The notes beneath the pieces are model-generated. The model had not been told where the DNA came from, did no database searches, and saw only the letters and a list, made by a program, of their open reading frames with translations. A stretch of 64,000 nucleotides of DNA from Muricea muricata (Eukaryota; Cnidaria; Anthozoa; Malacalcyonacea; Plexauridae). The number at the start of each line of letters is the position of its first letter. The first letter of the stretch is position 1. Where the stretch lies: the NCBI GenBank assembly GCA_963855995.1, contig OY979731.1, forward strand, positions 5,798,942-5,862,941, written 5' to 3'. Shown piece by piece: positions 10,701-37,500 of the stretch. The position numbers and the translations under genes are program-made.

Positions 10701-11700
10701 GTTCTAAGATTTTTCTTTTCAGTTTACAAGCAAATTATAGGTTTCTCATTTCAACATGTTGTTTCGCTCTTCTCGATGGTTTGAGCGCAGAAAACATGAT
10801 TCCCGACTTGCTAAGTTCTGCAATATCCATTTAGAAGGCCTCTTTCAGATCCGTGATTGCAGTACATCATTGCGCTCAACTCGTTCACTTTAGCACTGAA
10901 AAAAGCATTTTAAGCTGTAAAACGTCGCCGTTATCGATTTAAGACGGCAATTTATAGTTAGTTATTTGAACATGTTTTCACGCTAAAATCGCTTCTAGAA
11001 CGCTTAAAACGCGATTTTGATGGTTCTAAGATTTTTCTTTTCAGTTTACAAGCAAATTATAGGTTTCTCATTTCAACATGTTGTTTCGCTCTTCTCGATG
11101 GTTTGAGCGCAGAAAACATGATTCCCGACTTGCTAAGTTCTGCAATATCCATTTAGAAGGCCTCTTTCAGATCCGTGATTGCAGTACATCATTGCGCTCA
11201 ACTCGTTCACTTTAGCACTGAAAAAAGCATTTTAAGCTGTAAAACGTCGCCGTTATCGATTTAAGACGGCAATTTATAGTTAGTTATTTGAACATGTTTT
11301 TACGCTCAAATCGCTTTTAGAAGGCTTAAAACGCGATTTTGATGGTTCTAAGATCGTTTCTTTTCAGTTTACAATCAAGTTATAGGTTTCTCATTCAACA
11401 TGTTGTTTCGCTCATCTCGATGGTTTGAGCGCCGAAAACATGATTTCCGACTTGCTAAGTTGTGCAAATTCCATTTAGAATGTCTCTTTTAGGTCCGTGA
11501 TTGCAGTACATCATTGCGCTAAACTCGTTCACTTTAGCACTGAAAACATTATTTAAGCTTTAAAACGTCGCCGTGATCGATTTAAGACGGCAATTTTTAG
11601 GTGGTGATTTGAGTATGTTTTTACTCTCAAATCGCTTCCAGAACGCTTAAAACGCGATTTTGATGGTTCTAAGATCGTTTCTTTTCAGTTTACAAGCAAG
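7600..11700. repeat. A-like higher-order block, older and rearranged
   Basis: The monomer order follows the 4,843-bp A unit: 7,680 matches 25,109 and 8,495 matches 25,924 at an offset of 17,429. By 9,701 the offset has become 18,075, so two monomers are missing here relative to the A unit. At about 11.0 kb the offset drops by 322 because one monomer is duplicated. It carries more private differences than the three A copies carry among themselves, so it looks like an older or less homogenised relative. Confidence 0.7.
10665..11305. repeat. Single-monomer tandem duplication, offset 322 bp
   Basis: Two adjacent monomers share the rare features AAGATTTTTCTTTT (one T shorter than the related copy near 1,008), CGCAGAAAACATG, AGGCCTCTTTCAGATCC and AATTTATAGTTAGTTATTTG. 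The T deletion explains a 322-bp rather than 323-bp step. The three A units carry only one copy at the equivalent place, so the duplication is local to this block. Confidence 0.8.
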
Positions 11701-14700
11701 TTATGGGTCTCTCATTTCAACATGTTATTTCGCTCAATTCGATGGTTTGAGCGCCGTAAACATGATTGCCGACTTCCTAAGTTCTGCAATATCCATTTAG
11801 AAGGTCTCTTTTAAATCCGTGATTGCAGTACATCATTGCGCTCAACTCGTTCACTTTAGCACTGAAAACAGCATTTTAACCTGTAAAACGTCGCCGTTAT
11901 CGATTTAAGACGGCAATTTATAGTTAGTGATTTAAGCATGTTTTCACGCTTAAATCGCTTCTAGAAGGCTTAAAACGCGATTTTGATGGTTCTAAGATCG
12001 TTTCTTTTCAGTTTACAATCAAGTTATAGGTTTCTCATTCAACATGTTGTTTCGCTCATCTCGATGGTTTGAGCGCCGAAAACATGATTTCTGACTTGCT
12101 AAGTTGTGCAAATTCCATTTAGAATGTCTCTTTTAGGTCCGTGATTGCAGTACATCATTGCGCTCAACTCGTTCACTTTAGCACTGAAAACATTATTTTA
12201 AGCTTTAAAACGTCGCCGTGATCGATTTAAGACGGCAATTTTTAGGTGGTGATTTGAGTATGTTTTTACTCTCAAATCGCTTCCAGAACGCTTAAAACGC
12301 GATTTTGATGCTTCTAAGATCGTTTCTTTTCAGTTTACAAGCAAGTTATGGGTTTCTCATTTCAACATGTTTTTTCGCTCAATTCGATGGTTTGAGCGCC
12401 GTAAACATTATTGCCGACTTGCTAAGTTCTGCAATTTCCAGTTAGAAGGTCTCTTTTAGATTCGTGATTGCAGTACATCATTGCGCTCAACTCGTTCACT
12501 TTAGCACTGAAAACAGCATTTTAAGCTGTAAAACGTCGCCGTGATCGATTTAAGACGGCAATTTTTAGTTGGTGATTTGAGCATGTTTTCACGTTCAAAT
12601 CACTTCTAGAACGCTTAAAACGCGATTTTGATGGTTCTAAGATCGTTTCTTTTCAGTTTACAAGCAAGTTATAGGTTTCTCATTTCAACATGTTATTTCG
12701 CTCATCTCGATGGTTTGAGCGCCGAAAACATGATTCTTGACTTGCTAAGTTCTGCAAATTCCATTTAGAAGGTCTCTTTTGGGTCCGTGATTGCAGTACA
12801 TCATTGCGCTCAACTCGTTCAATTTAGCACTGAAAAAATTATTTTAAGCTTTAAAACGTCGCCGTGATCGATTTAAAACGGCAATTTTTAGGTGGTGATT
12901 TGAGTATGTTTTTACTCTGAAATCGCTTCCAGAACGCTTAAAACGCGATTTTGATGGTTCTAAGATCGTTTCTTTTATGTTTACAAGCCAGTTATGGGTT
13001 TCTCGTTTCAACATGTTATTTCGCTCATATCGATGGTTTGAGCGCCGTAAACATGATTGCCGACTTGCTAAGTTCTGCAATTTCCATTTAGAATGTCTCT
13101 TTTAGATCCGTGATTGCAGTACATCATTGCGCTCAACTCGTTCACTTTAGCACTGAAAACAGCATTTTAAGCTGTAAAACGTCGCTGTGATCGATTTAAG
13201 ACGGCAATTTTTAGTTAGTGATTTGAGCATGTTTTCACTTTAAAATCGCTTCTAGAACGCTTAAAACGCGATTTTGATGGTTCTAAGATCGTTTCTTTTC
13301 AGTTTACAAGCAAGTTATGGGTTTCTCATTTCAACATGTTGTTTCGCTCATCTCGATGGTTTGAGCGCAGACAACATGATTCCCGACTTGCTAAGTTCTG
13401 CAATTTCTATTTAGAAGGTCTCTTTTAGGTCCCTGATTACAGTACATGATTGTGCTCAACTCGTTCACTCTAGCACTAAAAAAACCATTTTAAGCTCTAA
13501 AACGTCGCCGTGGTCGATTTAAGACGGATATTTTTAGTTGGTGATTTGAGCATGTTTACACGCTAGAATCGCTTCTAGAACGCTTAAAACGCGATTTTGG
13601 TGGTTCTAAGGTCGTTTCTTTTGAGTTTACAAGCAAGTTATAGGTTTCACATTTCAACATGTTGTTTCGGTCACCTCGATGGCTTGAGCGCCGAAAACAG
13701 GATTCCCGACTTGCTAAGTTCTGCAATTTCCATTTAGAAGGTCTCTTTTAGGTCCCTGATTGCAGTACATCATAACGCTCAACTCGTTCGTTCTAGCACT
13801 AAAAACACCATTTTAAGCTCTAAAACGTCGCCGTGGTCGATTTAAGACGGCAGATTTTAGTTGGTGATTTGAGCATGTTTTTACGCTCAAATCGCTTTTA
13901 GAACGCTTAAAATACGCGGTTTTGATGGTTCTAAGGTCGTTTCTTTTGAGTTTACAAGCAAGTTATAGGTTTCACATTTCAACATGTTGTTTCGGTCATC
14001 TCGATGGTTTGAGCGCCGAAAACATGATTCCCGACTTGCTAAGTTGTGCAATATCAAATTAGAAGGTCTTTTTTAAGATCCGTCATTGCAGTACATCATT
14101 GCGCTCAACTCGTTCACTTTAGCACTGAAAACAGCATTTTAAGCTGTAAAACGTCGATGTGATCGATTTAAGACGGCAATTTTTAGTTAGTGATTTGAGC
14201 ATGTTTTCACGCTCAAATCGCTTCTAGAAGGCTTAAAACGCGATTTCGATGGTTCTAAGATCGTTTCTTTTCAGTTTACAAGCAAGTTATAGGTTTCTCA
14301 TTTCAACATGTTATTTCGCTCATCCCGATGGTTTGAGTGCCGAAAACATGATTCCCGACTTGCTAAGTTCTGCAAATTCCATTTAGAAGGTCTCTTTTAG
14401 GTCCCTGATTGCAGTACATCATTGCGCTCAACTCGTTCGTTCTAGCACTAAAAACACCATTTTAAGCTCTAAAACGTCGCCGTGGTCGATTTAAGATAGC
14501 AATTTTTAGTTGGTGATTTGAGCATGTTTTTACGCTCAAATCGCTTTTTGAGCGCTTAAAACGCGATTTTGATGGTTCTAAGGTCGTTTCTTTTGAGTTT
14601 ACAAGCAAGTTATAGGTTTCTCATTTCAACATGTTATTTCGCTCATCTCGATGGTTTTAGCGCCGAAAACATGATTCCCGACTTGCTAAGTTCTGCAAAT

Positions 14701-15699
14701 TCCATTTAGAAGGTCTCTTTTAGGTCCGTGATTGCAGTACATCATTGCGCTAAACTCGTTCACTTTAGCACTGAAAACATTAGTTTAAGCTTTAAAACGT
14801 CGCCGTGATCGATTTAAGACGGCAATTTTTAGGTGGTGATTTGAGTATGTTTTTACTCTCAAATCGCTTTTAGGACGCTTAAAACGCGATTTTGATTTTT
14901 CTAAGATCGTTTCTTTTCAGTTTACAAGCAAGTTATAGGTTTCTCATTTCAACATGTTGTTTCATTCATCTCGATGGTTTGAGCGCCGAAAACATGATTG
15001 CCGACTTGCTAAGTTCTGCAATTTCCATTTAGAAGGTCTCTTTTAGGTCCGTGATTGCAGTACATCATTGCGCTCAACTCGTTCACTTTAGCACTGAAAA
15101 CATTATTTTAAGCTTTAAAACGTCGCCGTGATCGATTTAAGACGGCAATTTTTGGTGGTGATTTGAGTATGTTTTCACGCTCAAATCGCTTCCAGAACGC
15201 TTAAAACGCGACTTTGATGGTTCTAAGATCGTTTCTTTTCAGTTTACAAGCAAGTTATGGGTTTCTCATTTCAACATGTTATTTCGCTCATTTCGATGGT
15301 TTGAGCGCCGTAAACATGATTGCCGACTTGCTAAGTTCTTCAATTTCCATTTAGAAGGTCTCTTTTAGATCCGTGATTGCAGTACATCATTGCGCTCAAC
15401 TCGTTCACTTTAGCACTGAAAACAGCATTTTAAGCTGTAAAACGTCGCCGTGATCGATTTAAGACGGCAATTTTTAGTTAGTGATTTGCGCATGTTTTCA
15501 CGCTAAAATCGCTTCTAGAACGCTTAAAACGCGATTTTGATGGTTCTAAGATTTTTTCTTTTAAGTTTACAAGCAAATTATAGGTTTCTCATTTCAACAT
15601 GTTGTTTCGCTCTTCTCGATGGTTTGAGCGCAGAAAACATGATTCCCGACTTGCTAAGTTCTGCAATATCCATTTAGAAGGCCTCTTTTAGGTCCGTGA

Positions 15700-17130
15700 T
15701 GGCACTACATCATTGCGCTCAACTCGTTCACTTTAGCACTGAAAACAGCATTTTAAGCTTTAAAACGTCGCCGTGATCGATTTAAGACGGCAACTTTTAG
15801 GTGGTAATTTGAGTATGTTTTCACGCTAAAATCTCTTCCAGAACGCTTAACACGCGATTTTGATGGTTCTAAGATCGTTTCTTTTCAGTTTACAAGCAAG
15901 TTATGGGTCTCTCATTTCAACATGTTATTTCGCTCAATTCGATGGTTTGAGCGCCGTAAACATGATTGCCGACTTGCTAAGTTCTGCAATTTCCATTTAG
16001 AAGGTCTCTTTTAGATCCGTGGTTGCAGTACATCATTGCGCTCAACTCGTTCGCTTTAGCACTGAAAAAAGCATTTTAAGCTGTAAAACGTCGCCGTGAT
16101 CGATTTAAGACGGCAATTTTTAGTTGCTGATTTGAGCATGTTTTCACGCTCAAATCACTTCTAGAACGCTTAAAACGCGATTTTGATGGTTCTAAGATCG
16201 TTTCTTTTCAGTTTACAAGCAAGTTATAGGTTTCTCATTTCAACATGTTATTTCGCTCATCTCGATGGTTTGAGCGCCGAAAACATGATTCTTGACTTGC
16301 TAAGTTCTGCAAATTCCATTTAGAAGGTCTCTTTTAGGTCCGTGATGGCAGTACATCATTGCGCTCAACTCGTTCACTTTAGCACTGAAAACAGCATTTT
16401 AAGCTTTAAAACGTCGCCGTGATCGATTTAAGACGGCAATTTTTAGGTGGTAATTTGAGTATGTTTTCACGCTAAAATCTCTTCCAGAACGCTTAACACG
16501 CGATTTTGATGGTTCTAAGATCGTTTCTTTTCAGTTTACAAGCAAGTTATGGGTCTCTCATTTCAACATGTTATTTCGCTCAATTCGATGGTTTGAGCGC
16601 CGTAAACATGATTGCCGACTTGCTAAGTTCTGCAATTTCCATTTAGAAGGTCTCTTTTAGATCCGTGGTTGCAGTACATCATTGCGCTCAACTCGTTCGC
16701 TTTAGCACTGAAAAAAGCATTTTAAGCTGTAAAACGTCGCCGTGATCGATTTAAGACGGCAATTTTTAGTTGCTGATTTGAGCATGTTTTCACGCTCAAA
16801 TCACTTCTAGAACGCTTAAAACGCGATTTTGATGGTTCTAAGATCGTTTCTTTTCAGTTTACAAGCAAGTTATAGGTTTCTCATTTCAACATGTTATTTC
16901 GCTCATCTCGATGGTTTGAGCGCCGAAAACATGATTCTTGACTTGCTAAGTTCTGCAAATTCCATTTAGAAGGTCTCTTTTAGGTCCGTGATGGCAGTAC
17001 ATCATTGCGCTCAACTCGTTCACTTTAGCACTGAAAACAGCATTTTAAGCTTTAAAACGTCGCCGTGATCGATTTAAGACGGCAATTTTTAGGTGGTAAT
17101 TTGAGTATGTTTTCACGCTAAAATCTCTTC
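15700..17130. repeat. Tandem dimer duplication, offset 646 bp
   Basis: A two-monomer block recurs directly. Private markers are ATCCGTGGTTGCAG (about 16,016 and 16,662), TTAGTTGCTGATTTGAG and the GTGATGGCAG form of the usual GTGATTGCAG. The same dimer pattern is present in the B unit near 52.8-53.9 kb, so this duplication predates the spread of that unit. Confidence 0.75.
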
Positions 17131-17689
17131 CAGAACGCTTAACACGCGATTTTGATGGTTCTAAGATCGTTTCTTTTCAGTTTACAAGCAAGTTATGGGT
17201 TTCTCATTTCAACATGTTATTTCGCTCAATTCGAAGGTTTGAGCGCCGTAAACATGATTCCCGACTTGGTAAGTTCTTCAATTTCCATTTAGAAGGTCTC
17301 TTTTAGATCCGTGATTGCAGTACATCATTGCGCTCAACTCGTTCACTTTAGCACTGAAAACAGCATTTTAAGCTGTAAAACGTCGCCGTGATCGATTTAA
17401 GACCGCAATTTTTAGTTAGTGATTTGAGCATGTTTTCACGCTAAAATCGCTTCTAGAACGCTTAAAACGCGATTTTGATGGTTCTAAGATCGTTTCTTTT
17501 CAGTTTACAAGCAAGTTATAGGTTTCTCATTTCAACATGTTGTTTCGGTCATCTCGATGGTTTGAGCGCCTAAAACATGATTCCCGACTTCCTAAGTTCT
17601 GCAAATTCCATTTAGAAAGTCTTTTTTAGGTCCGTGATTACAGTACATGATTGTGCTCAACTCGTTCACTCTAGCACTAAAAACACCAT

Positions 17690-19010
17690 TTTAAGCCCTA
17701 AAACGTCGCCGTGGTCGATTTAAGACGGCAATTTTTAGTTGGTGATTTGAGCATGTTTTCACGCTCAAATCGCTTCTAGAACGCTTAAAACGCGATTTTG
17801 ATGGTTCTAAGGTCGTTTCTTTTGAGTTTACAAGCAAGTTATACGTTTCACATTTCAACATGTTGTTTCGGTCATCTCGATGGTTTGAGCGCCAAAAACA
17901 TGATTCCCGACTTGCTAAGTTCTGCAATATCCATTTAGAAGGTCTCTTTTAGATCCGTGATTGCAGTACATCATTGCGCTCAACTCGTTCACTTTAGCAC
18001 TGAAAACAGCATTTTAAGCTGTAAAACGTCGCCGTTATCGATTTAAGACGGCAATTTATAGTTAGTGATTTAAGCATGTTTTCACGCTTAAATCGCTTCT
18101 AGAAGGCTTAAAACGCGATTTTGATGGTTCTAAGATCGTTTCTTTTCAGTTTACAATCAAGTTATAGGTTTCTCATTCAACATGTTGTTTCGCTCATCTC
18201 GATGGTTTGAGCGCAGAAAACATGATTCCCGACTTGCTAAGTTCTGCAATTTCTATTTAGAAGGTCTCTTTTAGGTCCCTGATTACAGTACATGATTGTG
18301 CTCAACTCGTTCACTCTAGCACTAAAAAAACCATTTTAAGCTCTAAAACGTCGCCGTGGTCGATTTAAGACGGCAATTTTTAGTTGGTGATTTGAGCATG
18401 TTTTCACGCTCAAATCGCTTCTAGAACGCTTAAAACGCGATTTTGATGGTTCTAAGGTCGTTTCTTTTGAGTTTACAAGCAAGTTATAGGTTCCACATTT
18501 CAACATGTTGTTTCGGTCATCTCGATGGTTTGAGCGCCAAAAACATGATTCCCGACTTGCTAAGTTCTGCAATATCCATTTAGAAGGTCTCTTTTAGATC
18601 CGTGATTGCAGTACATCATTGCGCTCAACTCGTTCACTTTAGCACTGAAAACAGCATTTTAAGCTGTAAAACGTCGCCGTTATCGATTTAAGACGGCAAT
18701 TTATAGTTAGTGATTTAAGCATGTTTTCACGCTTAAATCGCTTCTAGAAGGCTTAAAACGCGATTTTGATGGTTCTAAGATCGTTTCTTTTCAGTTTACA
18801 ATCAAGTTATAGGTTTCTCATTCAATATGTTGTTTCGCTCATCTCGATGGTTTGAGCGCAGAAAACATGATTCCCGACTTGCTAAGTTCTGCAATTTCTA
18901 TTTAGAAGGTCTCTTTTAGGTCCCTGATTACAGTACATGATTGTGCTCAACTCGTTCACTCTAGCACTAAAAAAACCATTTTAAGCTCTAAAACGTCGCC
19001 GTGGTCGATT
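17690..19010. repeat. Tandem dimer duplication, offset 645 bp
   Basis: Two adjacent two-monomer copies share CCGTTATCGATTTAAGACGG, the AATTTATAG variant and the paired hairpin change GATTTAAGC/GCTTAAATC (18,067-18,094 and 18,712-18,739). A third partial copy follows near 18,981 and diverges at TTTAAGACGGATA. The 645-bp step is one base short of two 323-bp monomers because one monomer reads CTCATTCAA instead of CTCATTTCAA. Confidence 0.75.
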
Positions 19011-20420
19011 TAAGACGGATATTTTTAGTTGGTGATTTGAGCATGTTTACACGCTAGAATCGCTTCTAGAACGCTTAAAACGCGATTTTGGTGGTTCTAA
19101 GGTCGTTTCTTTTGAGTTTACAAGCAAGTTATAGGTTTCACATTTCAACATGTTGTTTCGGTCACCTCGATGGCTTGAGCGCCGAAAACATGATTCCGCA
19201 CTTGCTAAGTTCTGCAATATCAAATTAGAAGGTCTCTTTTAGATCCGTGATTGCAGTACATCATTGCGCTCAACTCGTTCACTTTAGCACTGAAAACATT
19301 ATTTTAAGCTTTAAAACGTCGCCGTGATCGATTTAAGACGGAAATTTTTAGGTGGTGATTTGAGTATGTTTTCACGCTCAAATCGCTTCCAGAACGCTTA
19401 AAACGCGATTTTGATGGTTCTAAGATCGTTTCTTTTCAGTTTACAAGCAAGTTATGGGTTTCTCATTTCAACATGTTATTTCGCTCAATTCGATGGTTTG
19501 AGCGCCGTAAACATGATTGCCGACTTGCTAAGTTCTTCAATTTCCATTTAGAACGTCTCTTTTAGATCTGTGATTGCAGTACATCATTGCGCTCAACTCG
19601 TTCGTTCTAGCACTAAAAACACCATTTTAAGCTTTAAAACGTCGCCGTGGTCGATTTAAGATAGCAATTTTTAGTTCGTGATTTGAGCATGTTTTTACGC
19701 TCAAATCGCTTTTAGAACGCTTAAAACGAGATTTTGATGGTTCTAAGGTCGTTTCTTTTGAGTTTACAAGCAAGTTATAGGTTTCACATTTCAACATGTT
19801 GTTTCGGTCATCTCGACGGTTTGAGCGCCAAAAACATGATTCCCGACTTGCTAAGTTCTGCAATATCCATTTAGAAGGTCTCTTTTAGATCCGTGATTGC
19901 AGTACATCATTGCGCTCAAATCGTTCACTTTAGCACTGAAAACCGCATTTTAAGCTGTGAAACGTCGGCGTGATCGATTTAAGACGGCAATTTTTAGTTA
20001 GTGATTTGAGCATGTTTTCACGCTCAAATCGCTTCTAGAAGGCTTAAAACGCGATTTTGATGGTTCTAAGATCGTTTCTTTTAAGTTTACAAGCAAGTTA
20101 TAGGTTTCTCATTTCAACATGTTATTTCGCTTATCTCGATGGTTTGAGCGCCGAAAACATGATTCCCGACTTGCTAAGTTCTGCAAATTCCATTTAGAAG
20201 GTCTCTTTTAGGTCCGTGATTGCAGTACATAATGCGCTCAACTCGTTCACTTTAGCACTGAAAACACCATTTTAAGCTCTAAAACGTCGCCATGGTCGTT
20301 TTAAGACGGCAATTTTAAGTTGGTGATTTGAGCATGTTTTTACGCTCAAATGGCTTCTAGAACGCTTAAAACGCGATTTTTATGGTGCTAAGATCCTTTC
20401 TTTTGAGTTTATAAGCAAGT

Positions 20421-22667: not shown

Positions 22668-22700
22668 AAGTTATAGGTTTCTTATTTCAACATGTTATTT

Positions 22701-22723
22701 CGCTCATCTCGATGGTTTGAGCG
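22701..22723. other. Monomer hairpin 3 in subunit 2 (representative copy)
   Basis: CGCTCA (22,701-22,706) and TGAGCG (22,718-22,723) form a 6-bp stem around an 11-base loop. Many monomers have CGGTCA with TGAGCG, which breaks one pair. A few have CGGTCA with TGACCG, which restores it by swapping C:G for G:C. The arms are short, so chance is a real alternative. Confidence 0.5.
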
Positions 22724-23221
22724 CCGAAAACATGATTCCCGACTTTCTAAGTTCTGCAAATTCCATTTAGAAGGTCTCTTTTAGGTCCGTGATTACAGTA
22801 CATGAATGTGCTCAACTCGTTCACTCTAGCACTAAAAAGACCATTTAAAGCTCTAAAACTTCGCCGTGGTCGATTTAAGACGGCAATTTTTAGTTGGTGG
22901 TTTGAGCATGTTTTCACGCTCAAATCGCTTCTAGAACGCTTAAAACGCGATTTTGAAGGTTCTAAGGTCGTTTCTTTTGAGTTTACAAGCAAGTTATAGG
23001 TTTCACATTTCAACATGTTGTTTCGGTCATCTCGTTGGCTTGAGCGCCAAAAACATGATTCCCGACTTGCTAAGTTCTGCAATATCAAATTTGAATGTCT
23101 CTTTTAGATCCGTGATTGCAGTACATCATTGCGCTCAACTCGTTCACTTTAGCACTGAAAACAGCATTTTAAGCTGTAAAACGTCGCCGTGATCGATTTA
23201 AGACGGCAATTTTTAGTTAGT

Positions 23222-23249
23222 GATTTGAGCATGTTTTCACGCTCAAATC
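23222..23249. other. Monomer hairpin 1 (representative copy)
   Basis: GATTTGAGC (23,222-23,230) and GCTCAAATC (23,241-23,249) are perfect 9-bp reverse complements around a 10-base loop. The pair straddles the join between subunit 3 of one monomer and subunit 1 of the next and recurs in many monomers. Some variants break it; the paired variant GATTTAAGC/GCTTAAATC keeps it. Whether it forms a cruciform or RNA hairpin is unknown. Confidence 0.7.
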
Positions 23250-23347
23250 GCTTCTAGAACGCTTAAAACGCGATTTTGATGGTTTTAAGATCGTTTCTTT
23301 TCAGTTTACAAGCAAGTTATAGGTTTCTCATTTCAACATGTTGTTTC
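23241..23347. repeat. Subunit 1 of the ancestral ~108-bp repeat
   Basis: This subunit opens with GCTCAAATCG. It shares with the other two an AAAAC block about 25 bases in, a CTAAG or TAAAA block near base 46, an (A/G)TTTA(C/G/A)A block near base 64, a TAG near base 81, and CAT followed by TT near the end. It is one base shorter than the others. It contains the TCTAGA site and the run ending in CAACATGTTGTTTC. Confidence 0.75.
23245..23276. other. Monomer hairpin 2, overlapping hairpin 1
   Basis: AAATCGC (23,245-23,251) pairs with GCGATTT (23,270-23,276) over an 18-base loop that includes TCTAGA. Its left arm shares five bases with the right arm of hairpin 1, so the two cannot form together. 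Monomers with GCTAAAATCGC extend the second stem to 8 bp while weakening the first. Confidence 0.55.
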
Positions 23348-23455
23348 ATTCATCTCGATGGTTTGAGCGCCGAAAACATGATTCCCGTCTTGCTAAGTTC
23401 TGCAATTTCCATTTAGAAGGTCTCTTTTAGGTCCCTGATTGCAGTACATCATAAC
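23348..23455. repeat. Subunit 2 of the ancestral ~108-bp repeat
   Basis: In most monomers this subunit opens with GCTCATCTCG (here ATTCATCTCG). In the consensus it aligns without gaps to subunit 3 over 108 positions with about 61 identities by hand count. The best-kept parts are the opening motif, the GAAAAC block at bases 25-30, ATTTA near base 64 and GTGATT near base 88. It also carries an internal inverted repeat, CGCTCA and TGAGCG, in monomers with the GCTCA opening. Confidence 0.75.
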
Positions 23456-23563
23456 GCTCAACTCGTTCGTTCTAGCACTAAAAACACCATTTTAAGCTCT
23501 AAAACGTCGCCGTGGTCGATTTAAAACGGCAATTTTTAGTTGGTGATTTGAGCATGTTTTCAC
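23456..23563. repeat. Subunit 3 of the ancestral ~108-bp repeat
   Basis: This subunit opens with GCTCAACTCG and ends with the left arm (GATTTGAGC) and loop of a hairpin whose right arm starts the next monomer. Two main haplotypes exist in the array. One reads TTTAGCACTGAAAACAGC, then GCTGTAAAAC and GTGATCG. The other reads TCTAGCACTAAAAACACC, then GCTCTAAAAC and GTGGTCG. Mosaics of the two also occur. Confidence 0.75.
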
Positions 23564-24840
23564 GCTCAAATTACTTCTAGAACGCTTAAAACGCGATTTT
23601 GATGGTTCTAAGGTCGTTTCTTTTCAGTGTATAAGCAAGTTATAGGTTTCACATTTCAACATGTTGTTTCGGTCATCTCGATGGTTTGAGCGCCAAAAAC
23701 ATGATTCCCGACTTCCTAAGTTCTGCAATATCAAATTAGAAGGTCTTTTTTTAGAACCGTCATTGCAGTACATCATTGCGCTCAACTCGTTCAATTTAGC
23801 ACTGAAAACAGCATTTCAAGCTGTAAAACGTCGATGTGATCGATTTAAGACGGCAATTTTTAGTTAGTGATTTTAACATGTTTTCACGCTCAAATTGCTT
23901 CTAGAACGCTTAAAACGCGATTTTGATGGTTCTAAGATCGTTTCTTTTCAGTTTACAAGCAAGTTATAGGTTTCTCATTTCAACATGTTTTTTCATTCAT
24001 CTCGATGGTTTGAGCGCCGAAATCATGATTCCCGACTTGGTATGTTCTGCAAATTCAATTTAGAAGGTCTCTTTTAGGTCCGTGATTGCAGTACATCATT
24101 GCGCTCAACTCGTTCACTATAGGACTAAAAACACCATTTTAAGCTCTAAAACGTCGCCGTGGTCGATTTAGGACGGCTATTTTAAGTTGGTGATTTGAGC
24201 ATGTTTTCACGCTCAAATTCCTTCTAGAACGCTTAAAACGCGATTTTGATGGTTCTAAGGTCGTTTCTTTTCAGTTTACAAGCAAGTTATAGGTTTCACA
24301 TTTCAACATGTTGTTTCGGTCATCTCGATGGTTTGAGCGCCGAAAACTTGATTCCCGACTTGCTAAGTTCTGCAATGTCAAATTAGAAGGTCTTTTTTAA
24401 GATCCGTCATTGCAGTACATCATTGCGCTCAACTCGTTCACTTTAGCACTGAAAACCGCATTTTAAGCTGTAAAACGTCGCCGTGATCGATTTAACACGG
24501 CAATTTTTAGTTAGTGATTTGAGCATGTTTTCACGCTCAAATCGCTTCTAGAAGGCTTAAAACGCGATTTTGATGGTTCTAAGATCGTTTCTTTTCAGTT
24601 TACAAGCAAGTTATAGGTTTCTCATTTCAACATGTTATTTCGCTCATCTCGATGGTTTTAGCGCCGAAAACATGATTCCCGACTTGCTAAGTTCTGCAAA
24701 TTCCATTTAGAAGGTCTCTTTTAGGTCCGTGATTGCAGTACATCATTGCGCTAAACTCGTTCACTTTAGCACTGAAAACATTATTTTAAGCTTTAAAACG
24801 TCGCCGTGATCGATTTAAGACGGCAATTTTTAGGTGGTGG

Positions 24841-27800
24841 TTTGAGTATGTTTTTACTCTCAAATCGCTTTTAGAACGCTTAAAACGCGATTTTGATGCT
24901 TCTAAGATCGTTTCTTTTCAGTTTACAAGCAAGTTATAGGTTTCTCATTTCAACATGTTGTTTCATTCATCTCGATGGTTTGAGCGCCGAAAACATGATT
25001 GCCGACTTGCTAAGTTCTGCAATTTCCATTTAGAAGGTCTCTTTTAGGTCCGTGATTGCAGTACATCATTGCGCTAAACTCGTTCACTTTAGCACTGAAA
25101 ACATTATTTTAAGCTTTAAAACGTCGCCGTGATCGATTTAAGACGGCAATTTTTTGTTGGTGATTTGAGCATGTTTTTACGCTCAAATCGCTTTTAGCAC
25201 GCTTAAAACGCGATTTTGATGGTTCTAAGGTCGTTTCTTTTGAGTTTACAAGCAAGTTATAGGTTTCACATTTCAACATGTTGTTTCGGTCATCTCGATG
25301 GTTTGAGCGCCGTAAACATGATTCTCGACTTGCTAAGTTCTGCAATATCCATTTAGAAGGTCTCTTTTAGATCCGTGATTGCAGTACATCATTGCGCTCA
25401 ACTCGTTCACTTTAGCACTGAAAACCGCATTTTAAGCTGTAAAACGTCGCCGTGATCGATTTAAGACGGAAATTTTTAGTTAGTGATTTAAGCATGTTTT
25501 CACGCTCAAATCGCTTCTAGAAGGCTTAAAACGCGACGTTTATGGTTCTAAGATCGTTACTTTTCAGTTTACAAGCAAGTTATAGGTTTTACATTTCAAC
25601 ATGTTGTTTCGGTCATCTCGATGGTTTGAGCGCCTAAAACATGATTCCCGACTTGCTAAGTTCTGCAAATTCCATTTAGAAAGTCTTTTTTAGGTCCGTG
25701 ATTACAGTACAAGATTGTGCTCAACTCATTCACTCTAGCACTAAAAACACCATTTTAAGCTCTAAAACGTCGCCGTGGTCGATTTAAAACGGCAATTTTT
25801 AGTTGGTGATTTGAGCATGTTTTCACGCTCAAATTACTTCTAGAACGCTTAAAACGCGATTTTGATGGTTCTAAGGTCGTTTCTTTTCAGTGTACAAGCA
25901 AGTTATAGGTTTCACATTTCAACATGTTGTTTCGGTCATCTCGATGGTTTGAGCGCCAAAAACATGGTTCCCGACTTGCTAAGTTCTGCAATATCAAATT
26001 AGAAGGTCTTTTTTTAGAACCGTCATTGCAGTACATCATTGCGCTCAACTCGTTCACTTTAGCACTGAAAACAGCATTTCAAGCTGTAAAACGTCGATGT
26101 GATCGATTTAAGACGGCAATTTTTAGTTAGTGATTTTAACATGTTTTCACGCTCAAATTGCTTCTAGAACGCTTAAAACGCGATTTTGATGGTTCTAAGA
26201 TCGTTTCTTTTCAGTTTACAAGCAAGTTATAGGTTTCTCATTTCAACATGTTTTTTCATTCATCTCGATGGTTTGAGCGCCGAAATCATGATTCCCGACT
26301 TGGTAAGTTCTGCAAATTCCATTTAGAAGGTCTCTTTTAGGTCCGTGATTACAGTACATGATTGTGCTCAACTCATTCACTCTAGCACTAAAAACACCAT
26401 TTTAAGCTCTAAAACGTCGCCGTGGTCGATTTAAAACGGCAATTTTTAGTTGGTGATTTGAGCATGTTTTCACGCTCAAATTACTTCTAGAACGCTTAAA
26501 ACGCGATTTTGATGGTTCTAAGGTCGTTTCTTTTCAGTGTACAAGCAAGTTATAGGTTTCACATTTCAACATGTTGTTTCGGTCATCTCGATGGTTTGAG
26601 CGCCAAAAACATGATTCCCGACTTGCTAAGTTCTGCAATATCAAATTAGAAAGTCTTTTTTTAGAACCGTCATTGCAGTACATCATTGCGCTCAACTCGT
26701 TCACTTTAGCACTGAAAACAGCATTTCAAGCTGAAAACGTCGATGTGATCGCTTTAAGACGGCAATTTTTAGTTAGTGATTTTAACATGTTTTCACGCTC
26801 AAATTGCTTCTAGAACGCTTAAAACGCGATTTTGATGGTTCTAAGATCGTTTCTTTTCAGTTTACAAGCAAGTTATAGGTTTCTCATTTCAACATGTTTT
26901 TTCATTCATCTCGATGGTTTGAGCGCCGAAATCATGATTCCCGACTTGGTATGTTCTGCAAATTCCATTTAGAAGGTCTCTTTTAGGTCCGTGATTGCAG
27001 TACATCATTGCGCTCAACTCGTTCACTAAAGGAATAAAAACACCATTTTAAGCTCTAAAACGTCGCCGTGGTCGATTTAAGACGGCAATTTTAAGTTGGT
27101 GATTTGAGCATGTTTTCACGCTCAAATTCCTTCTAGAACGCTTAAAACGCGATTTTGATGGTTCTAAGGTCGTTTCTTTTCAGTTTACAAGCAAGTTATA
27201 GGTTTCACATTTCAACATGTTGTTTCGGTCATCTCGATGGTTTGAGCGCCGAAAACATGATTCCCGACTTGCTAAGTTCTGCAATATCAAATTAGAAGGT
27301 CTTTTTTAAGATCCGTCATTGCAGTACATCATTGCGCTCAACTCGTTCACTTTAGCACTGAAAACAGCATTTTAAGCTGTAAAACGTCGATGTGATCGAT
27401 TTAAGACGGCAATTTTTAGTTAGTGATTTGACCATGTTTTCCCGCTCAAATCGCTTCTAGAACGCTTAAAACGCGATTTTGATGCTTCTAAGATCGTTTC
27501 TTTTCAGTTTACAAGAAAGTTATAGGTTTCTCATTTCAACATGTTGTGTCATTCATCTCGATGGTTTGAGCGCCGAAATCATGATTCCCGACTTGGTAAG
27601 TTCTGCAATTTCCATTTAGAAGGTCTCTTTTAGGTCCCTGATTGCAGTACATCATTGCGCTCAACTCGTTCGTTCTAGCACTAAAAACACCATTTTAAGC
27701 TCTAAAACGTCGCCGTGGTCGATTTAAGATAGCAATTTTTAGTTGGTGATTTGAGCATGTTTTTACGCTCAAATCGCTTTTTGAGCGCTTAAAACGCGAT

Positions 27801-29683
27801 TTTGATGGTTCTAAGGTCGTTTCTTTTGAGTTTACAAGCAAGTTATAGGTTTCTCATTTCAACATGTTATTTCGCTCATCTCGATGGTTTTAGCGCCGAA
27901 AACATGATTCCCGACTTGCTAAGTTCTGCAAATTCCATTTAGAAGGTCTCTTTTAGGTCCGTGATTGCAGTACATCATTGCGCTAAACTCGTTCACTTTA
28001 GCACTGAAAACATTATTTTAAGCTTTAAAACGTCGCCGTGATCGATTTAAGACGGCAATTTTTAGGTGGTGATTTGAGTATCTTTTTACTCTCAAATCGC
28101 TTTTAGAACGCTTAAAACGCGATTTTGATGCTTCTAAGATCGTTTCTTTTCAGTTTACAAGCAAGTTATAGGTTTCTCATTTCAACATGTTGTTTCATTC
28201 ATCTCGATGGTTTGAGCGCCGAAAACATGATTGCCGACTTGCTAAGTTCTGCAATTTCCATTTAGAAGGTCTCTTTTAGGTCCGTGATTGCAGTACATCA
28301 TTGCGCTCAACTCGTTCACTTTAGCACTGAAAACATTATTTTAAGCTTTAAAACGTCGCCGTGATCGATTTAAGACGGCAATTTTTGGTGGTGATTTGAG
28401 TATGTTTTCACGCTCAAATCGCTTCCAGAACGCTTAAAACGCGACTTTGATGGTTCTAAGATCGTTTCTTTTCAGTTTACAAGCAAGTTATGGGTTTCTC
28501 ATTTCAACATGTTATTTCGCTCATTTCGATGGTTTGAGCGCCGTAAACATGATTGCCGACTTGCTAAGTTCTTCAATTTCCATTTAGAAGGTCTCTTTTA
28601 GATCCGTGATTGCAGTACATCATTGCGCTCAACTCGTTCACTTTAGCACTGAAAACAGCATTTTAAGCTGTAAAATGTCGCCGTGATCGATTTAAGACGG
28701 CAATTTTTAGTTAGTGATTTGCGCATGTTTTCACGCTAAAATCGCTTCTAGAACGCTTAAAACGCGATTTTGATGGTTCTAAGATTTTTCTTTTCAGTTT
28801 ACAAGCAAATTATAGGTTTCTCATTTCAACATGTTGTTTCGCTCTTCTCGATGGTTTGAGCGCAGAAAACATGATTCCCGACTTGCTAAGTTCTGCAATA
28901 TCCATTTAGAAGGCCTCTTTCAGATCCGTGATTGCAGTACATCATTGCGCTCAACTCGTTCACTTTAGCACTGAAAAAAGCATTTTAAGCTGTAAAACGT
29001 CGCCGTTATCGATTTAAGACGGCAATTTATAGTTAGTTATTTGAACATGTTTTTACGCTCAAATCGCTTTTAGAAGGCTTAAAACGCGATTTTGATGGTT
29101 CTAAGATCGTTTCTTTTCAGTTTACAATCAAGTTATAGGTTTCTCATTCAACATGTTGTTTCGCTCATCTCGATGGTTTGAGCGCCGAAAACATGATTTC
29201 CGACTTGCTAAGTTGTGCAAATTCCATTTAGAATGTCTCTTTTAGGTCCGTGATTGCAGTACATCATTGCGCTCAACTCGTTCACTTTAGCACTGAAAAC
29301 ATTATTTAAGCTTTAAAACGTCGCCGTGATCGATTTAAGACGGCAATTTTTAGGTGGTGATTTGAGTATGTTTTTACTCTCAAATCGCTTCCAGAACGCT
29401 TAAAACGCGATTTTGATGGTTCTAAGATCGTTTCTTTTCAGTTTACAAGCAAGTTATGGGTCTCTCATTTCAACATGTTATTTCGCTCAATTCGATGGTT
29501 TGAGCGCCGTAAACATGATTGCCGACTTGCTAAGTTCTGCAATTTCCATTTAGAAGGTCTCTTTTAGATCCGTGGTTGCAGTACATCATTGCGCTCAACT
29601 CGTTCACTTTAGCACTGAAAACAGCATTTTAAGCTGTAAAACGTCGCCGTGATCGATTTAAGACGGCAATTTTTAGGTGGTGG
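24841..29683. repeat. Higher-order repeat A, copy 1 (15 monomers, 4,843 bp)
   Basis: This is the first of three consecutive units. The boundary is set at TTTGAGTATG following AGGTGGTGG, which recurs at 29,684 and 34,527, exactly 4,843 bp apart. Landmarks inside (25,109; 25,924; 26,571) recur at the same step. The monomer before it is of a different type (CATTATTTTAAGC instead of CAGCATTTTAAGC), so the left breakpoint lies within about 60 bp upstream of this coordinate. One difference from the other copies is GGTTTTACATTTC near 25,587. Confidence 0.92.
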
Positions 29684-32600
29684 TTTGAGTATGTTTTTAC
29701 TCTCAAATCGCTTTTAGAACGCTTAAAACGCGATTTTGATGCTTCTAAGATCGTTTCTTTTCAGTTTACAAGCAAGTTATAGGTTTCTCATTTCAACATG
29801 TTGTTTCATTCATCTCGATGGTTTGAGCGCCGAAAACATGATTGCCGACTTGCTAAGTTCTGCAATTTCCATTTAGAAGGTCTCTTTTAGGTCCGTGATT
29901 GCAGTACATCATTGCGCTAAACTCGTTCACTTTAGCACTGAAAACATTATTTTAAGCTTTAAAACGTCGCCGTGATCGATTTAAGACGGCAATTTTTTGT
30001 TGGTGATTTGAGCATGTTTTTACGCTCAAATCGCTTTTAGCACGCTTAAAACGCGATTTTGATGGTTCTAAGGTCGTTTCTTTTGAGTTTACAAGCAAGT
30101 TATAGGTTTCACATTTCAACATGTTGTTTCGGTCATCTCGATGGTTTGAGCGCCGTAAACATGATTCTCGACTTGCTAAGTTCTGCAATATCCATTTAGA
30201 AGGTCTCTTTTAGATCCGTGATTGCAGTACATCATTGCGCTCAACTCGTTCACTTTAGCACTGAAAACCGCATTTTAAGCTGTAAAACGTCGCCGTGATC
30301 GATTTAAGACGGAAATTTTTAGTTAGTGATTTAAGCATGTTTTCACGCTCAAATCGCTTCTAGAAGGCTTAAAACGCGACGTTTATGGTTCTAAGATCGT
30401 TACTTTTCAGTTTACAAGCAAGTTATAGGTTTCACATTTCAACATGTTGTTTCGGTCATCTCGATGGTTTGAGCGCCTAAAACATGATTCCCGACTTGCT
30501 AAGTTCTGCAAATTCCATTTAGAAAGTCTTTTTTAGGTCCGTGATTACAGTACAAGATTGTGCTCAACTCATTCACTCTAGCACTAAAAACACCATTTTA
30601 AGCTCTAAAACGTCGCCGTGGTCGATTTAAAACGGCAATTTTTAGTTGGTGATTTGAGCATGTTTTCACGCTCAAATTACTTCTAGAACGCTTAAAACGC
30701 GATTTTGATGGTTCTAAGGTCGTTTCTTTTCAGTGTACAAGCAAGTTATAGGTTTCACATTTCAACATGTTGTTTCGGTCATCTCGATGGTTTGAGCGCC
30801 AAAAACATGGTTCCCGACTTGCTAAGTTCTGCAATATCAAATTAGAAGGTCTTTTTTTAGAACCGTCATTGCAGTACATCATTGCGCTCAACTCGTTCAC
30901 TTTAGCACTGAAAACAGCATTTCAAGCTGTAAAACGTCGATGTGATCGATTTAAGACGGCAATTTTTAGTTAGTGATTTTAACATGTTTTCACGCTCAAA
31001 TTGCTTCTAGAACGCTTAAAACGCGATTTTGATGGTTCTAAGATCGTTTCTTTTCAGTTTACAAGCAAGTTATAGGTTTCTCATTTCAACATGTTTTTTC
31101 ATTCATCTCGATGGTTTGAGCGCCGAAATCATGATTCCCGACTTGGTAAGTTCTGCAAATTCCATTTAGAAGGTCTCTTTTAGGTCCGTGATTACAGTAC
31201 ATGATTGTGCTCAACTCATTCACTCTAGCACTAAAAACACCATTTTAAGCTCTAAAACGTCGCCGTGGTCGATTTAAAACGGCAATTTTTAGTTGGTGAT
31301 TTGAGCATGTTTTCACGCTCAAATTACTTCTAGAACGCTTAAAACGCGATTTTGATGGTTCTAAGGTCGTTTCTTTTCAGTGTACAAGCAAGTTATAGGT
31401 TTCACATTTCAACATGTTGTTTCGGTCATCTCGATGGTTTGAGCGCCAAAAACATGATTCCCGACTTGCTAAGTTCTGCAATATCAAATTAGAAAGTCTT
31501 TTTTTAGAACCGTCATTGCAGTACATCATTGCGCTCAACTCGTTCACTTTAGCACTGAAAACAGCATTTCAAGCTGAAAACGTCGATGTGATCGCTTTAA
31601 GACGGCAATTTTTAGTTAGTGATTTTAACATGTTTTCACGCTCAAATTGCTTCTAGAACGCTTAAAACGCGATTTTGATGGTTCTAAGATCGTTTCTTTT
31701 CAGTTTACAAGCAAGTTATAGGTTTCTCATTTCAACATGTTTTTTCATTCATCTCGATGGTTTGAGCGCCGAAATCATGATTCCCGACTTGGTATGTTCT
31801 GCAAATTCCATTTAGAAGGTCTCTTTTAGGTCCGTGATTGCAGTACATCATTGCGCTCAACTCGTTCACTAAAGGAATAAAAACACCATTTTAAGCTCTA
31901 AAACGTCGCCGTGGTCGATTTAAGACGGCAATTTTAAGTTGGTGATTTGAGCATGTTTTCACGCTCAAATTCCTTCTAGAACGCTTAAAACGCGATTTTG
32001 ATGGTTCTAAGGTCGTTTCTTTTCAGTTTACAAGCAAGTTATAGGTTTCACATTTCAACATGTTGTTTCGGTCATCTCGATGGTTTGAGCGCCGAAAACA
32101 TGATTCCCGACTTGCTAAGTTCTGCAATATCAAATTAGAAGGTCTTTTTTAAGATCCGTCATTGCAGTACATCATTGCGCTCAACTCGTTCACTTTAGCA
32201 CTGAAAACAGCATTTTAAGCTGTAAAACGTCGATGTGATCGATTTAAGACGGCAATTTTTAGTTAGTGATTTGACCATGTTTTCCCGCTCAAATCGCTTC
32301 TAGAACGCTTAAAACGCGATTTTGATGCTTCTAAGATCGTTTCTTTTCAGTTTACAAGAAAGTTATAGGTTTCTCATTTCAACATGTTGTGTCATTCATC
32401 TCGATGGTTTGAGCGCCGAAATCATGATTCCCGACTTGGTAAGTTCTGCAATTTCCATTTAGAAGGTCTCTTTTAGGTCCCTGATTGCAGTACATCATTG
32501 CGCTCAACTCGTTCGTTCTAGCACTAAAAACACCATTTTAAGCTCTAAAACGTCGCCGTGGTCGATTTAAGATAGCAATTTTTAGTTGGTGATTTGAGCA

Positions 32601-34526
32601 TGTTTTTACGCTCAAATCGCTTTTTGAGCGCTTAAAACGCGATTTTGATGGTTCTAAGGTCGTTTCTTTTGAGTTTACAAGCAAGTTATAGGTTTCTCAT
32701 TTCAACATGTTATTTCGCTCATCTCGATGGTTTTAGCGCCGAAAACATGATTCCCGACTTGCTAAGTTCTGCAAATTCCATTTAGAAGGTCTCTTTTAGG
32801 TCCGTGATTGCAGTACATCATTGCGCTAAACTCGTTCACTTTAGCACTGAAAACATTATTTTAAGCTTTAAAACGTCGCCGTGATCGATTTAAGACGGCA
32901 ATTTTTAGGTGGTGATTTGAGTATCTTTTTACTCTCAAATCGCTTTTAGAACGCTTAAAACGCGATTTTGATGCTTCTAAGATCGTTTCTTTTCAGTTTA
33001 CAAGCAAGTTATAGGTTTCTCATTTCAACATGTTGTTTCATTCATCTCGATGGTTTGAGCGCCGAAAACATGATTGCCGACTTGCTAAGTTCTGCAATTT
33101 CCATTTAGAAGGTCTCTTTTAGGTCCGTGATTGCAGTACATCATTGCGCTCAACTCGTTCACTTTAGCACTGAAAACATTATTTTAAGCATTAAAACGTC
33201 GCCGTGATCGATTTAAGACGGCAATTTTTGGTGGTGATTTGAGTATGTTTTCACGCTCAAATCGCTTCCAGAACGCTTAAAACGCGACTTTGATGGTTCT
33301 AAGATCGTTTCTTTTCAGTTTACAAGCAAGTTATGGGTTTCTCATTTCAACATGTTATTTCGCTCATTTCGATGGTTTGAGCGCCGTAAACATGATTGCC
33401 GACTTGCTAAGTTCTTCAATTTCCATTTAGAAGGTCTCTTTTAGATCCGTGATTGCAGTACATCATTGCGCTCAACTCGTTCACTTTAGCACTGAAAACA
33501 GCATTTTAAGCTGTAAAATGTCGCCGTGATCGATTTAAGACGGCAATTTTTAGTTAGTGATTTGCGCATGTTTTCACGCTAAAATCGCTTCTAGAACGCT
33601 TAAAACGCGATTTTGATGGTTCTAAGATTTTTCTTTTCAGTTTACAAGCAAATTATAGGTTTCTCATTTCAACATGTTGTTTCGCTCTTCTCGATGGTTT
33701 GAGCGCAGAAAACATGATTCCCGACTTGCTAAGTTCTGCAATATCCATTTAGAAGGCCTCTTTCAGATCCGTGATTGCAGTACATCATTGCGCTCAACTC
33801 GTTCACTTTAGCACTGAAAAAAGCATTTTAAGCTGTAAAACGTCGCCGTTATCGATTTAAGACGGCAATTTATAGTTAGTTATTTGAACATGTTTTTACG
33901 CTCAAATCGCTTTTAGAAGGCTTAAAACGCGATTTTGATGGTTCTAAGATCGTTTCTTTTCAGTTTACAATCAAGTTATAGGTTTCTCATTCAACATGTT
34001 GTTTCGCTCATCTCGATGGTTTGAGCGCCGAAAACATGATTTCCGACTTGCTAAGTTGTGCAAATTCCATTTAGAATGTCTCTTTTAGGTCCGTGATTGC
34101 AGTACATCATTGCGCTCAACTCGTTCACTTTAGCACTGAAAACATTATTTAAGCTTTAAAACGTCGCCGTGATCGATTTAAGACGGCAATTTTTAGGTGG
34201 TGATTTGAGTATGTTTTTACTCTCAAATCGCTTCCAGAACGCTTAAAACGCGATTTTGATGGTTCTAAGATCGTTTCTTTTCAGTTTACAAGCAAGTTAT
34301 GGGTCTCTCATTTCAACATGTTATTTCGCTCAATTCGATGGTTTGAGCGCCGTAAACATGATTGCCGACTTGCTAAGTTCTGCAATTTCCATTTAGAAGG
34401 TCTCTTTTAGATCCGTGGTTGCAGTACATCATTGCGCTCAACTCGTTCACTTTAGCACTGAAAACAGCATTTTAAGCTGTAAAACGTCGCCGTGATCGAT
34501 TTAAGACGGCAATTTTTAGGTGGTGG
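29684..34526. repeat. Higher-order repeat A, copy 2 (15 monomers, 4,843 bp)
   Basis: Nearly identical to the units on either side, monomer by monomer. By eye only isolated substitutions were noticed, for example TTTTAAGCATTAAAACG near 33,185 where the others have GCTTTAAAACG. The unit includes its own internal near-duplicates, such as the variant monomers at 30,767 and 31,414 (647 bp apart), so it was assembled by earlier smaller duplications before being amplified as a block. Confidence 0.92.
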
Positions 34527-37500
34527 TTTGAGTATGTTTTTACTCTCAAATCGCTTTTAGAACGCTTAAAACGCGATTTTGATGCTTCTAAGATCGTTTC
34601 TTTTCAGTTTACAAGCAAGTTATAGGTTTCTCATTTCAACATGTTGTTTCATTCATCTCGATGGTTTGAGCGCCGAAAACATGATTGCCGACTTGCTAAG
34701 TTCTGCAATTTCCATTTAGAAGGTCTCTTTTAGGTCCGTGATTGCAGTACATCATTGCGCTAAACTCGTTCACTTTAGCACTGAAAACATTATTTTAAGC
34801 TTTAAAACGTCGCCGTGATCGATTTAAGACGGCAATTTTTTGTTGGTGATTTGAGCATGTTTTTACGCTCAAATCGCTTTTAGCACGCTTAAAACGCGAT
34901 TTTGATGGTTCTAAGGTCGTTTCTTTTGAGTTTACAAGCAAGTTATAGGTTTCACATTTCAACATGTTGTTTCGGTCATCTCGATGGTTTGAGCGCCGTA
35001 AACATGATTCTCGACTTGCTAAGTTCTGCAATATCCATTTAGAAGGTCTCTTTTAGATCCGTGATTGCAGTACATCATTGCGCTCAACTCGTTCACTTTA
35101 GCACTGAAAACCGCATTTTAAGCTGTAAAACGTCGCCGTGATCGATTTAAGACGGAAATTTTTAGTTAGTGATTTAAGCATGTTTTCACGCTCAAATCGC
35201 TTCTAGAAGGCTTAAAACGCGACGTTTATGGTTCTAAGATCGTTACTTTTCAGTTTACAAGCAAGTTATAGGTTTCACATTTCAACATGTTGTTTCGGTC
35301 ATCTCGATGGTTTGAGCGCCTAAAACATGATTCCCGACTTGCTAAGTTCTGCAAATTCCATTTAGAAAGTCTTTTTTAGGTCCGTGATTACAGTACAAGA
35401 TTGTGCTCAACTCATTCACTCTAGCACTAAAAACACCATTTTAAGCTCTAAAACGTCGCCGTGGTCGATTTAAAACGGCAATTTTTAGTTGGTGATTTGA
35501 GCATGTTTTCACGCTCAAATTACTTCTAGAACGCTTAAAACGCGATTTTGATGGTTCTAAGGTCGTTTCTTTTCAGTGTACAAGCAAGTTATAGGTTTCA
35601 CATTTCAACATGTTGTTTCGGTCATCTCGATGGTTTGAGCGCCAAAAACATGGTTCCCGACTTGCTAAGTTCTGCAATATCAAATTAGAAGGTCTTTTTT
35701 TAGAACCGTCATTGCAGTACATCATTGCGCTCAACTCGTTCACTTTAGCACTGAAAACAGCATTTCAAGCTGTAAAACGTCGATGTGATCGATTTAAGAC
35801 GGCAATTTTTAGTTAGTGATTTTAACATGTTTTCACGCTCAAATTGCTTCTAGAACGCTTAAAACGCGATTTTGATGGTTCTAAGATCGTTTCTTTTCAG
35901 TTTACAAGCAAGTTATAGGTTTCTCATTTCAACATGTTTTTTCATTCATCTCGATGGTTTGAGCGCCGAAATCATGATTCCCGACTTGGTAAGTTCTGCA
36001 AATTCCATTTAGAAGGTCTCTTTTAGGTCCGTGATTACAGTACATGATTGTGCTCAACTCATTCACTCTAGCACTAAAAACACCATTTTAAGCTCTAAAA
36101 CGTCGCCGTGGTCGATTTAAAACGGCAATTTTTAGTTGGTGATTTGAGCATGTTTTCACGCTCAAATTACTTCTAGAACGCTTAAAACGCGATTTTGATG
36201 GTTCTAAGGTCGTTTCTTTTCAGTGTACAAGCAAGTTATAGGTTTCACATTTCAACATGTTGTTTCGGTCATCTCGATGGTTTGAGCGCCAAAAACATGA
36301 TTCCCGACTTGCTAAGTTCTGCAATATCAAATTAGAAAGTCTTTTTTTAGAACCGTCATTGCAGTACATCATTGCGCTCAACTCGTTCACTTTAGCACTG
36401 AAAACAGCATTTCAAGCTGAAAACGTCGATGTGATCGCTTTAAGACGGCAATTTTTAGTTAGTGATTTTAACATGTTTTCACGCTCAAATTGCTTCTAGA
36501 ACGCTTAAAACGCGATTTTGATGGTTCTAAGATCGTTTCTTTTCAGTTTACAAGCAAGTTATAGGTTTCTCATTTCAACATGTTTTTTCATTCATCTCGA
36601 TGGTTTGAGCGCCGAAATCATGATTCCCGACTTGGTATGTTCTGCAAATTCCATTTAGAAGGTCTCTTTTAGGTCCGTGATTGCAGTACATCATTGCGCT
36701 CAACTCGTTCACTAAAGGAATAAAAACACCATTTTAAGCTCTAAAACGTCGCCGTGGTCGATTTAAGACGGCAATTTTAAGTTGGTGATTTGAGCATGTT
36801 TTCACGCTCAAATTCCTTCTAGAACGCTTAAAACGCGATTTTGATGGTTCTAAGGTCGTTTCTTTTCAGTTTACAAGCAAGTTATAGGTTTCACATTTCA
36901 ACATGTTGTTTCGGTCATCTCGATGGTTTGAGCGCCGAAAACATGATTCCCGACTTGATAAGTTCTTCAATATCAAATTAGAAGGTCTTTTTTAAGATCC
37001 GTCATTGCAGTACATCATTGCGCTCAACTCGTTCACTTTAGCACTGAAAACAGCATTTTAAGCTGTAAAACGTCGATGTGATCGATTTAAGACGGCAATT
37101 TTTAGTTAGTGATTTGACCATGTTTTCCCGCTCAAATCGCTTCTAGAACGCTTAAAACGCGATTTTGATGCTTCTAAGATCGTTTCTTTTCAGTTTACAA
37201 GAAAGTTATAGGTTTCTCATTTCAACATGTTGTGTCATTCATCTCGATGGTTTGAGCGCCGAAATCATGATTCCCGACTTGGTAAGTTCTGCAATTTCCA
37301 TTTAGAAGGTCTCTTTTAGGTCCCTGATTGCAGTACATCATTGCGCTCAACTCGTTCGTTCTAGCACTAAAAACACCATTTTAAGCTCTAAAACGTCGCC
37401 GTGGTCGATTTAAGATAGCAATTTTTAGTTGGTGATTTGAGCATGTTTTTACGCTCAAATCGCTTTTTGAGCGCTTAAAACGCGATTTTGATGGTTCTAA

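Follow-up and report, generated by a model that had tools for sequence, protein, structure and literature searches.

Background

The mouse major satellite (234 bp) and rat satellite I (370 bp) are classic satellite monomers built of shorter, diverged subunits; both differ in subunit number and length from the 323-bp satellite monomer of the cnidarian Muricea muricata described here. A review describes complex satellites as lengthening their units by merging shorter motifs, and gives Drosophila Responder as two 120-bp monomers, 84% identical, that repeat as a dimer (PMC8122249). In Responder and in the M. muricata satellite alike, a shorter, diverged unit is repeated as a block with a fixed number of copies, but the M. 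muricata block holds three units at 56% identity instead of two at 84%, the genomes are unrelated, and the parallel is drawn from the published description. In the plant Chenopodium, the 117-bp monomer of CficCl-61-40 has been decomposed into three 39-bp subrepeats (PMC6429384). Here too there are three diverged shorter units, and a path from a short ancestral unit to longer monomers and higher-order repeats, although the host is a plant, the unit is about 40 bp long and the parallel is again drawn from the published description. Primate alpha satellite shares the long arrays and the contrast between monomers that differ strongly within a block and block copies that are nearly identical (PMC8122249); it differs in monomer length and sequence, and in M. 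muricata a weak search recovered no free copies of the 108-bp subunit and any centromeric role is read from position. Satellite growth by multimerisation of shorter units is already known; notable in M. muricata are the clear register, the relative dating and the variants that have gained or lost a subunit. No paper listed in the literature searches was recognisable as a description of this satellite; the term 323-bp occurs in one listed paper, on maize (PMC7010299).

Structure of the array

The window, the whole stretch of 64,000 nucleotides analysed, lies at 5.80-5.86 Mb of an 11.6-Mb contig (C16), one of the 74 contigs that make up a 453-Mb assembly. It is a 323-bp satellite array, delimited by Tandem Repeats Finder and interrupted by one LINE fragment (Table 1), with the long head-to-tail organization of satellite DNA (blocks of 63.2 and 120.7 copies, plus 7.3). 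Anchor matching gave 188 matches. Omitting the final one and those that precede steps of 649, 2574, 646 and 617 left 183 normal-length monomers; the mean pairwise identity among these 183 aligned full monomers is 0.916 (range 0.852-1.0). One monomer, within 61344-61960, has only 294 bp. The consensus monomer contains more CpG than expected (observed/expected 1.48, versus 0.88 in the LINE insert), and the predicted DNA fold of the monomer is unremarkable (z -1.72; 6 of 100 shuffles equally stable).

Part of the right block is organized into a higher-order repeat. Among monomer pairs at a lag of 15, 35/156 reach an identity of 0.985 or more, 32 of these with a start within 24858-35513, against an all-pairs background of 387/16653, and many monomer pairs within the tract are 0.99-1.00 identical. 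Blocks of diverged monomers thus recur with near identity, which is what characterizes a higher-order repeat.

The LINE fragment (20421-22667 of the window, + strand) carries an uninterrupted 581-codon frame at 20781-22526 that matches RVT_1 (reverse transcriptase). Pfam finds no endonuclease in this frame; thus, the retrotransposon fragment is probably 5'-truncated. An inverted repeat, AGGTTATAAAACCT, lies at its left edge.

Table 1. Features of the 323-bp satellite in the window (window coordinates)
Feature	Position	Strand	Basis
323-bp satellite array, left block, 63.2 copies	4..20420	+	Tandem Repeats Finder, 90% matches
323-bp satellite array, right block, including a monomer 29 bp short near 61344-61960	22668..64000	+	Tandem Repeats Finder rows 22668-61656, 61363-61951 (period 294) and 61652-64000; anchor step 617 at 61344
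Monomer of the earlier note, T1-T2-T3, 323 bp	23241..23563	+	Head motif exact at 23241 and 23456; ATTCATCTCG at 23348
Subunit T1, 107 bp, one base short	23241..23347	+	Register of consensus thirds
Subunit T2, 108 bp	23348..23455	+	Register of consensus thirds
Subunit T3, 108 bp	23456..23563	+	Register of consensus thirds
Higher-order repeat, 15 monomers (4843 bp), near-identical pairs throughout, a few monomers skipped	24858..40678	+	Lag-15 identities

Threefold periodicity of the monomer

The head motif GCTCANNTCG stands at positions 1, 108 and 216 of the 183-monomer consensus, that is, at steps of 107, 108 and 108 bp. The window contains 305 exact copies, most commonly spaced by 108 (115 times), 215 (55 times) or 107 bp (35 times). 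The earlier note on this DNA had reported the motif three times per monomer at the same three steps; this is true of the consensus, but the monomer at the coordinates given in the note has the exact motif in two of the three places, the middle one being altered (Table 1).

Circular self-comparison of the consensus reaches its maximum at shift 108, where 153/323 positions match (shuffled maximum 106.8±3.4). None of 5000 dinucleotide shuffles reaches this peak at any shift, and a chance origin of the periodicity was rejected. Individual monomers behave alike, with the peak at shift 108 in 165/183 and at 107 in 18/183. Secondary self-similarity at shift 127 (117/323), and also at 87 and 20, stays below that at 108.

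Divided into thirds of 107, 108 and 108 bp (T1, T2 and T3), the consensus aligns with a single one-base gap and identities of 59/107, 61/107 and 61/108; the base missing from T1 is located near its position 14. The ungapped T2-T3 identity, 61/108, is exactly the count that the earlier note had obtained by hand, and it is reached by none of 5000 shuffles (29.9±4.6). Ungapped T1-T2 and T1-T3 comparisons score only 43 (reached by 15/5000 shuffles) and 42 (35/5000) because of the base missing from T1. Gapped global scores are 68, 80 and 75 against shuffled means of 28-32 (sd about 7.5), each reached by 0/5000 shuffles; in local alignment the T1-T2 pair is weaker (120/5000 shuffles reach its score) than T1-T3 (0) and T2-T3 (1/5000). 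The thirds therefore align above chance in one register, as expected of a monomer built from subunits, and the outcome named beforehand as refuting this view, thirds scoring no better than shuffled sequences, did not appear.

Genomic distribution, subfamilies and relative age

A 33-base T2 pattern, allowed up to three mismatches, has 18,326 + 22,450 = 40,776 matches genome-wide, and the reversed control has none. At one match per monomer, simple arithmetic gives a lower bound of about 13 Mb; the satellite thus makes up at least about 2.9% of the 453-Mb assembly. An earlier pattern scanned in this genome had poor spacing and told little (2 matches versus 20 in the control; its match on C11 was satellite, that on C2 was not). 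One pattern scanned in bacterial/archaeal and viral collections had no matches there, as expected for an animal satellite.

The satellite is present on at least nine contigs: sequence was examined on C4, C7, C8, C10, C11, C13 and C16, and C3 and C6 are among the listed matches. Placement on at least nine contigs is mid-contig among the matches listed, a position that suggests a centromeric role. On C16 (11.6 Mb), satellite was seen between about 4.99 and 5.90 Mb and is absent from samples at 4.96-4.98 and 5.91-5.95 Mb. Contig sizes are very uneven among those seen (C1, 124 Mb; C2, 72 Mb; C4, 19 Mb), with C7, C8, C10, C11, C13 and C16 at 11.6-15 Mb each. Among the matches listed, the C16 array switches strand, being + near 5.007 Mb, - at 5.01-5.29 Mb and + at 5.40-5.90 Mb, and the arrays of C7 (7.40-8.78 Mb) and C6 (5.10-6.89 Mb) are - on the left and + on the right. 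In a C13 locus (L057) the strand switches near 1344.

Consensuses from C7, C8, C10 and C13, based on a few loci each, differ by 2-3% from that of C16, and the C4 consensus (14 monomers) is identical to it at 303/323 positions. More distant are C11 and a part of C13 located near 6.3 Mb (7 monomers each), which differ by 12-13% from C16 and by 18% from each other, without gaps. The register is kept in each compared subfamily: matches summed over the three subunit pairs are 185 in the main subfamily, 163 in C11 and 164 in the C13 part, and C4 has 55+62+60 matches in register.

Different subunits are separated by a mean of 0.72 changes per site (75 pairs), versus 0.13 for the same subunit across subfamilies (27 pairs) and 0.20 for the deepest whole-monomer pair between subfamilies. 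In a 15-row tree, T1, T2 and T3 form one group each, with support of 98/96, 98/99 and 85/88; the tree program issued a warning about a meeting of two long branches, and the T3 grouping has the lowest of these values. Since each subunit type forms one group across the compared subfamilies, the trimer appears older than both the subfamilies and the 15-monomer repeat. If rates were equal, the relative distances support an order in which the trimer would have come first, then the subfamilies, then the 15-monomer higher-order repeat. The earlier proposal that the trimer preceded the higher-order repeats agrees with this contrast between about 0.72 (subunits), 0.13-0.20 (subfamilies) and the near identity of lag-15 pairs.

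Within the window, the subunits show no homogenisation with one another: each third is nearest to its own subunit type in 183/183 monomers (identity 0.943-0.959 versus 0.53-0.57). Across 59 inferred subfamily changes, in-register matches between subunits were lost 58 times and gained 21 times, compared with 28 and 29 in shifted registers; inter-subunit similarity is thus still decaying. The reconstructed ancestor of the subfamilies is not more periodic than the main subfamily (185 matches in each) and therefore adds no support for a deeper step. Copying of tracts between subunits was considered and rejected, the longest run of partner-matching diagnostic sites being 3. Minor variants match the base of a partner subunit in 105/262 cases (0.40, versus 0.344±0.023 in shifted registers; 1/103 shifts as high), and when restricted to variants seen at least 3 or at least 10 times, 9/103 and 5/103 shifts are as high. 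This slight excess is taken to reflect remnants of ancestral states or a bias in mutation.

Variants with a changed number of subunits

The spacing of an exact 15-base T2 motif across the genome uncovered monomers with altered subunit number. In the window itself, 18 motif pairs lie near 323 bp apart and none at about 108, 215 or 431 bp. Genome-wide, spacing of about 108 bp occurs in five places (one on C4, in register, and four on C16), spacing of about 215 bp in three places, all on C13 at 6.09-6.17 Mb and actually 219-221 bp, and spacing of about 431 bp in eight places (four on C4, at 430 or 431 bp, and four on C16, out of register).

The C4 variant has the structure T1-T2-T2-T3, and its second T2 starts exactly 108 bp past the first, an exact gain of 108 bp. 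For the two pairs of duplicate T2s that were compared, similarity is 92 and 95%. This variant is found twice, 1074 bp apart, within a 4.5-kb stretch, and a third time about 25 kb away. The C13 variant has the structure T2-T3-T2 and has lost most of T1: the T1 body is gone, and the junction, 4 bp off register, leads from T3 (after CAGTTAG) into the T1 tail (TTTCTTATTT). At the left edge of the C16 array, at 4.993-5.006 Mb (loci L083, L084, L086 and L089), several copies of T2(1-58)-T1(69-107)-T2 contain a 94-bp duplication that is clearly out of register and accounts for the four C16 places with 108-bp spacing. Thus, rearrangements need not follow subunit homology. The C4 and C13 variants sit inside otherwise trimeric families and look derived. 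Mispairing of related subunits would yield both a gain and a loss, as could slippage, or end joining where short stretches match.

Origin of the 323-bp monomer

The best explanation, to which a probability of roughly 90% is assigned, is that the 323-bp monomer is an old trimer of a unit of about 108 bp, as the earlier note had thought probable. It is preferred because the periodicity follows one register, subunit distances are near equal and star-like, each subunit type forms a single group, and variants that change subunit number exist. The starting point would have been a tandem array of the 108-bp unit, presumably free, whose neighbouring units differed or were diverging. A block of three neighbours, T1-T2-T3, with T1 lacking one base, would then have become the unit that was copied and homogenised, giving the 323-bp monomer, which would have come to occupy at least nine contigs as long mid-contig arrays and split into subfamilies. 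Homogenisation acting on whole trimers, and later on higher-order blocks, would have let the subunits drift to about 56% identity, and the residual similarity between subunits would still occasionally allow mispairing and, by unequal exchange, the addition of a subunit or the removal of most of one. Several results weigh against this explanation: the C16 variant is out of register, the C13 loss misses the register by 4 bp, and the ancestor test is neutral (185, 185). The modest T1-T2 local alignment, the 85/88 support for T3 and the failure of a weak search to find a free 108-bp satellite also count against it. In that search, the best 40 of 1790 candidates were scored, with full-length matches of 86-88%, and all 20 loci fetched lie within the 323-bp satellite; arrays further from the query would escape it.

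The column pattern bears on whether history or function holds the thirds alike. Of 107 gap-free columns, 45 are identical across all three thirds, 46 are alike in two and 16 differ in all; the expectation for an equal-branched star tree is 41.9, 53.3 and 11.9, so that a uniform model nearly fits. A protein or nucleosome that recognises GCTCANNTCG together with neighbouring blocks, three times in each monomer, with selection having kept or made the thirds alike, is very unlikely to be the source of the pattern: although 8/10 head-motif positions are alike across the three consensus subunits and all-alike columns vary slightly less among present-day monomers (p 0.044; 0.021 without CpG), similarity is spread across the whole 108 bp, all-alike columns show no clustering (longest run 5, p 0.55; 20 adjacent pairs versus 18.5±2.6, p 0.35), and the difference in variability is not significant between subfamilies (22/141 versus 42/182 sites, p 0.12). 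Because the conserved columns are unclustered, history accounts for the threefold pattern better than a functional motif does; a weak functional pull on some columns is possible. Base composition or a short internal repeat can hardly have produced the similarity as a by-product. The monomer is about 38% GC with runs of A and T, and there is the weaker peak at shift 127, but no dinucleotide shuffle reproduces the peak at shift 108, and a deeper period was rejected, the best shift within the 108-bp majority sequence being 21 (p 0.30 versus simple permutations).

A stepwise origin, in which a two-subunit repeat of about 216 bp came first and a third subunit was added later by duplicating one, is unlikely. 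The one-subunit gain on C4 and the two-subunit variant on C13, both rare, indicate that either step can occur, but the near-equal distances between subunits leave no pair clearly younger, which argues against late duplication of one subunit, and the derived look of both variants, in families otherwise trimeric, also speaks against it. An extension of the preferred trimer reading, in which the subunits remain live exchange partners, mispairing among T1, T2 and T3 goes on producing monomers with other subunit numbers, and three subunits are also actively favoured, for example by a chromatin length or a factor that reads each monomer thrice, is based on few variants and appears quite unlikely.

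With the trimer as its middle step, the satellite presents three levels of repeat growth in one genome that can be ordered relative to each other: the 108-bp subunit, the 323-bp trimer and the multi-monomer block. Its variants also document, at the level of sequence, changes in subunit number, and each level is assumed to begin with such a change. Data from related species would open the shift of the homogenisation unit to direct testing; the principle as such is already known.

Other features of the assembly

Cadherins mark the genome as that of an animal: at least 150 matches were obtained, all 150 that were scored out of 399 candidates, some of them on C16, and one archaeal control genome matched as well. 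Chitin_synth_1N matched neither this genome nor any control genome. A contig of 19,292 bp (C74) looks mitochondrial. It carries cox1 on one strand, which reads without any TGA under table 11, and frames resembling cox2, atp8 and atp6 on the opposite strand, of which atp8 and atp6 were named by eye. By sequence score, the mitochondrial cox1 and cox2 come closest to a 7jro chain, a result that gave no taxonomic placement. A damaged nuclear copy of this C74 region lies on C1, at 38.41 Mb.
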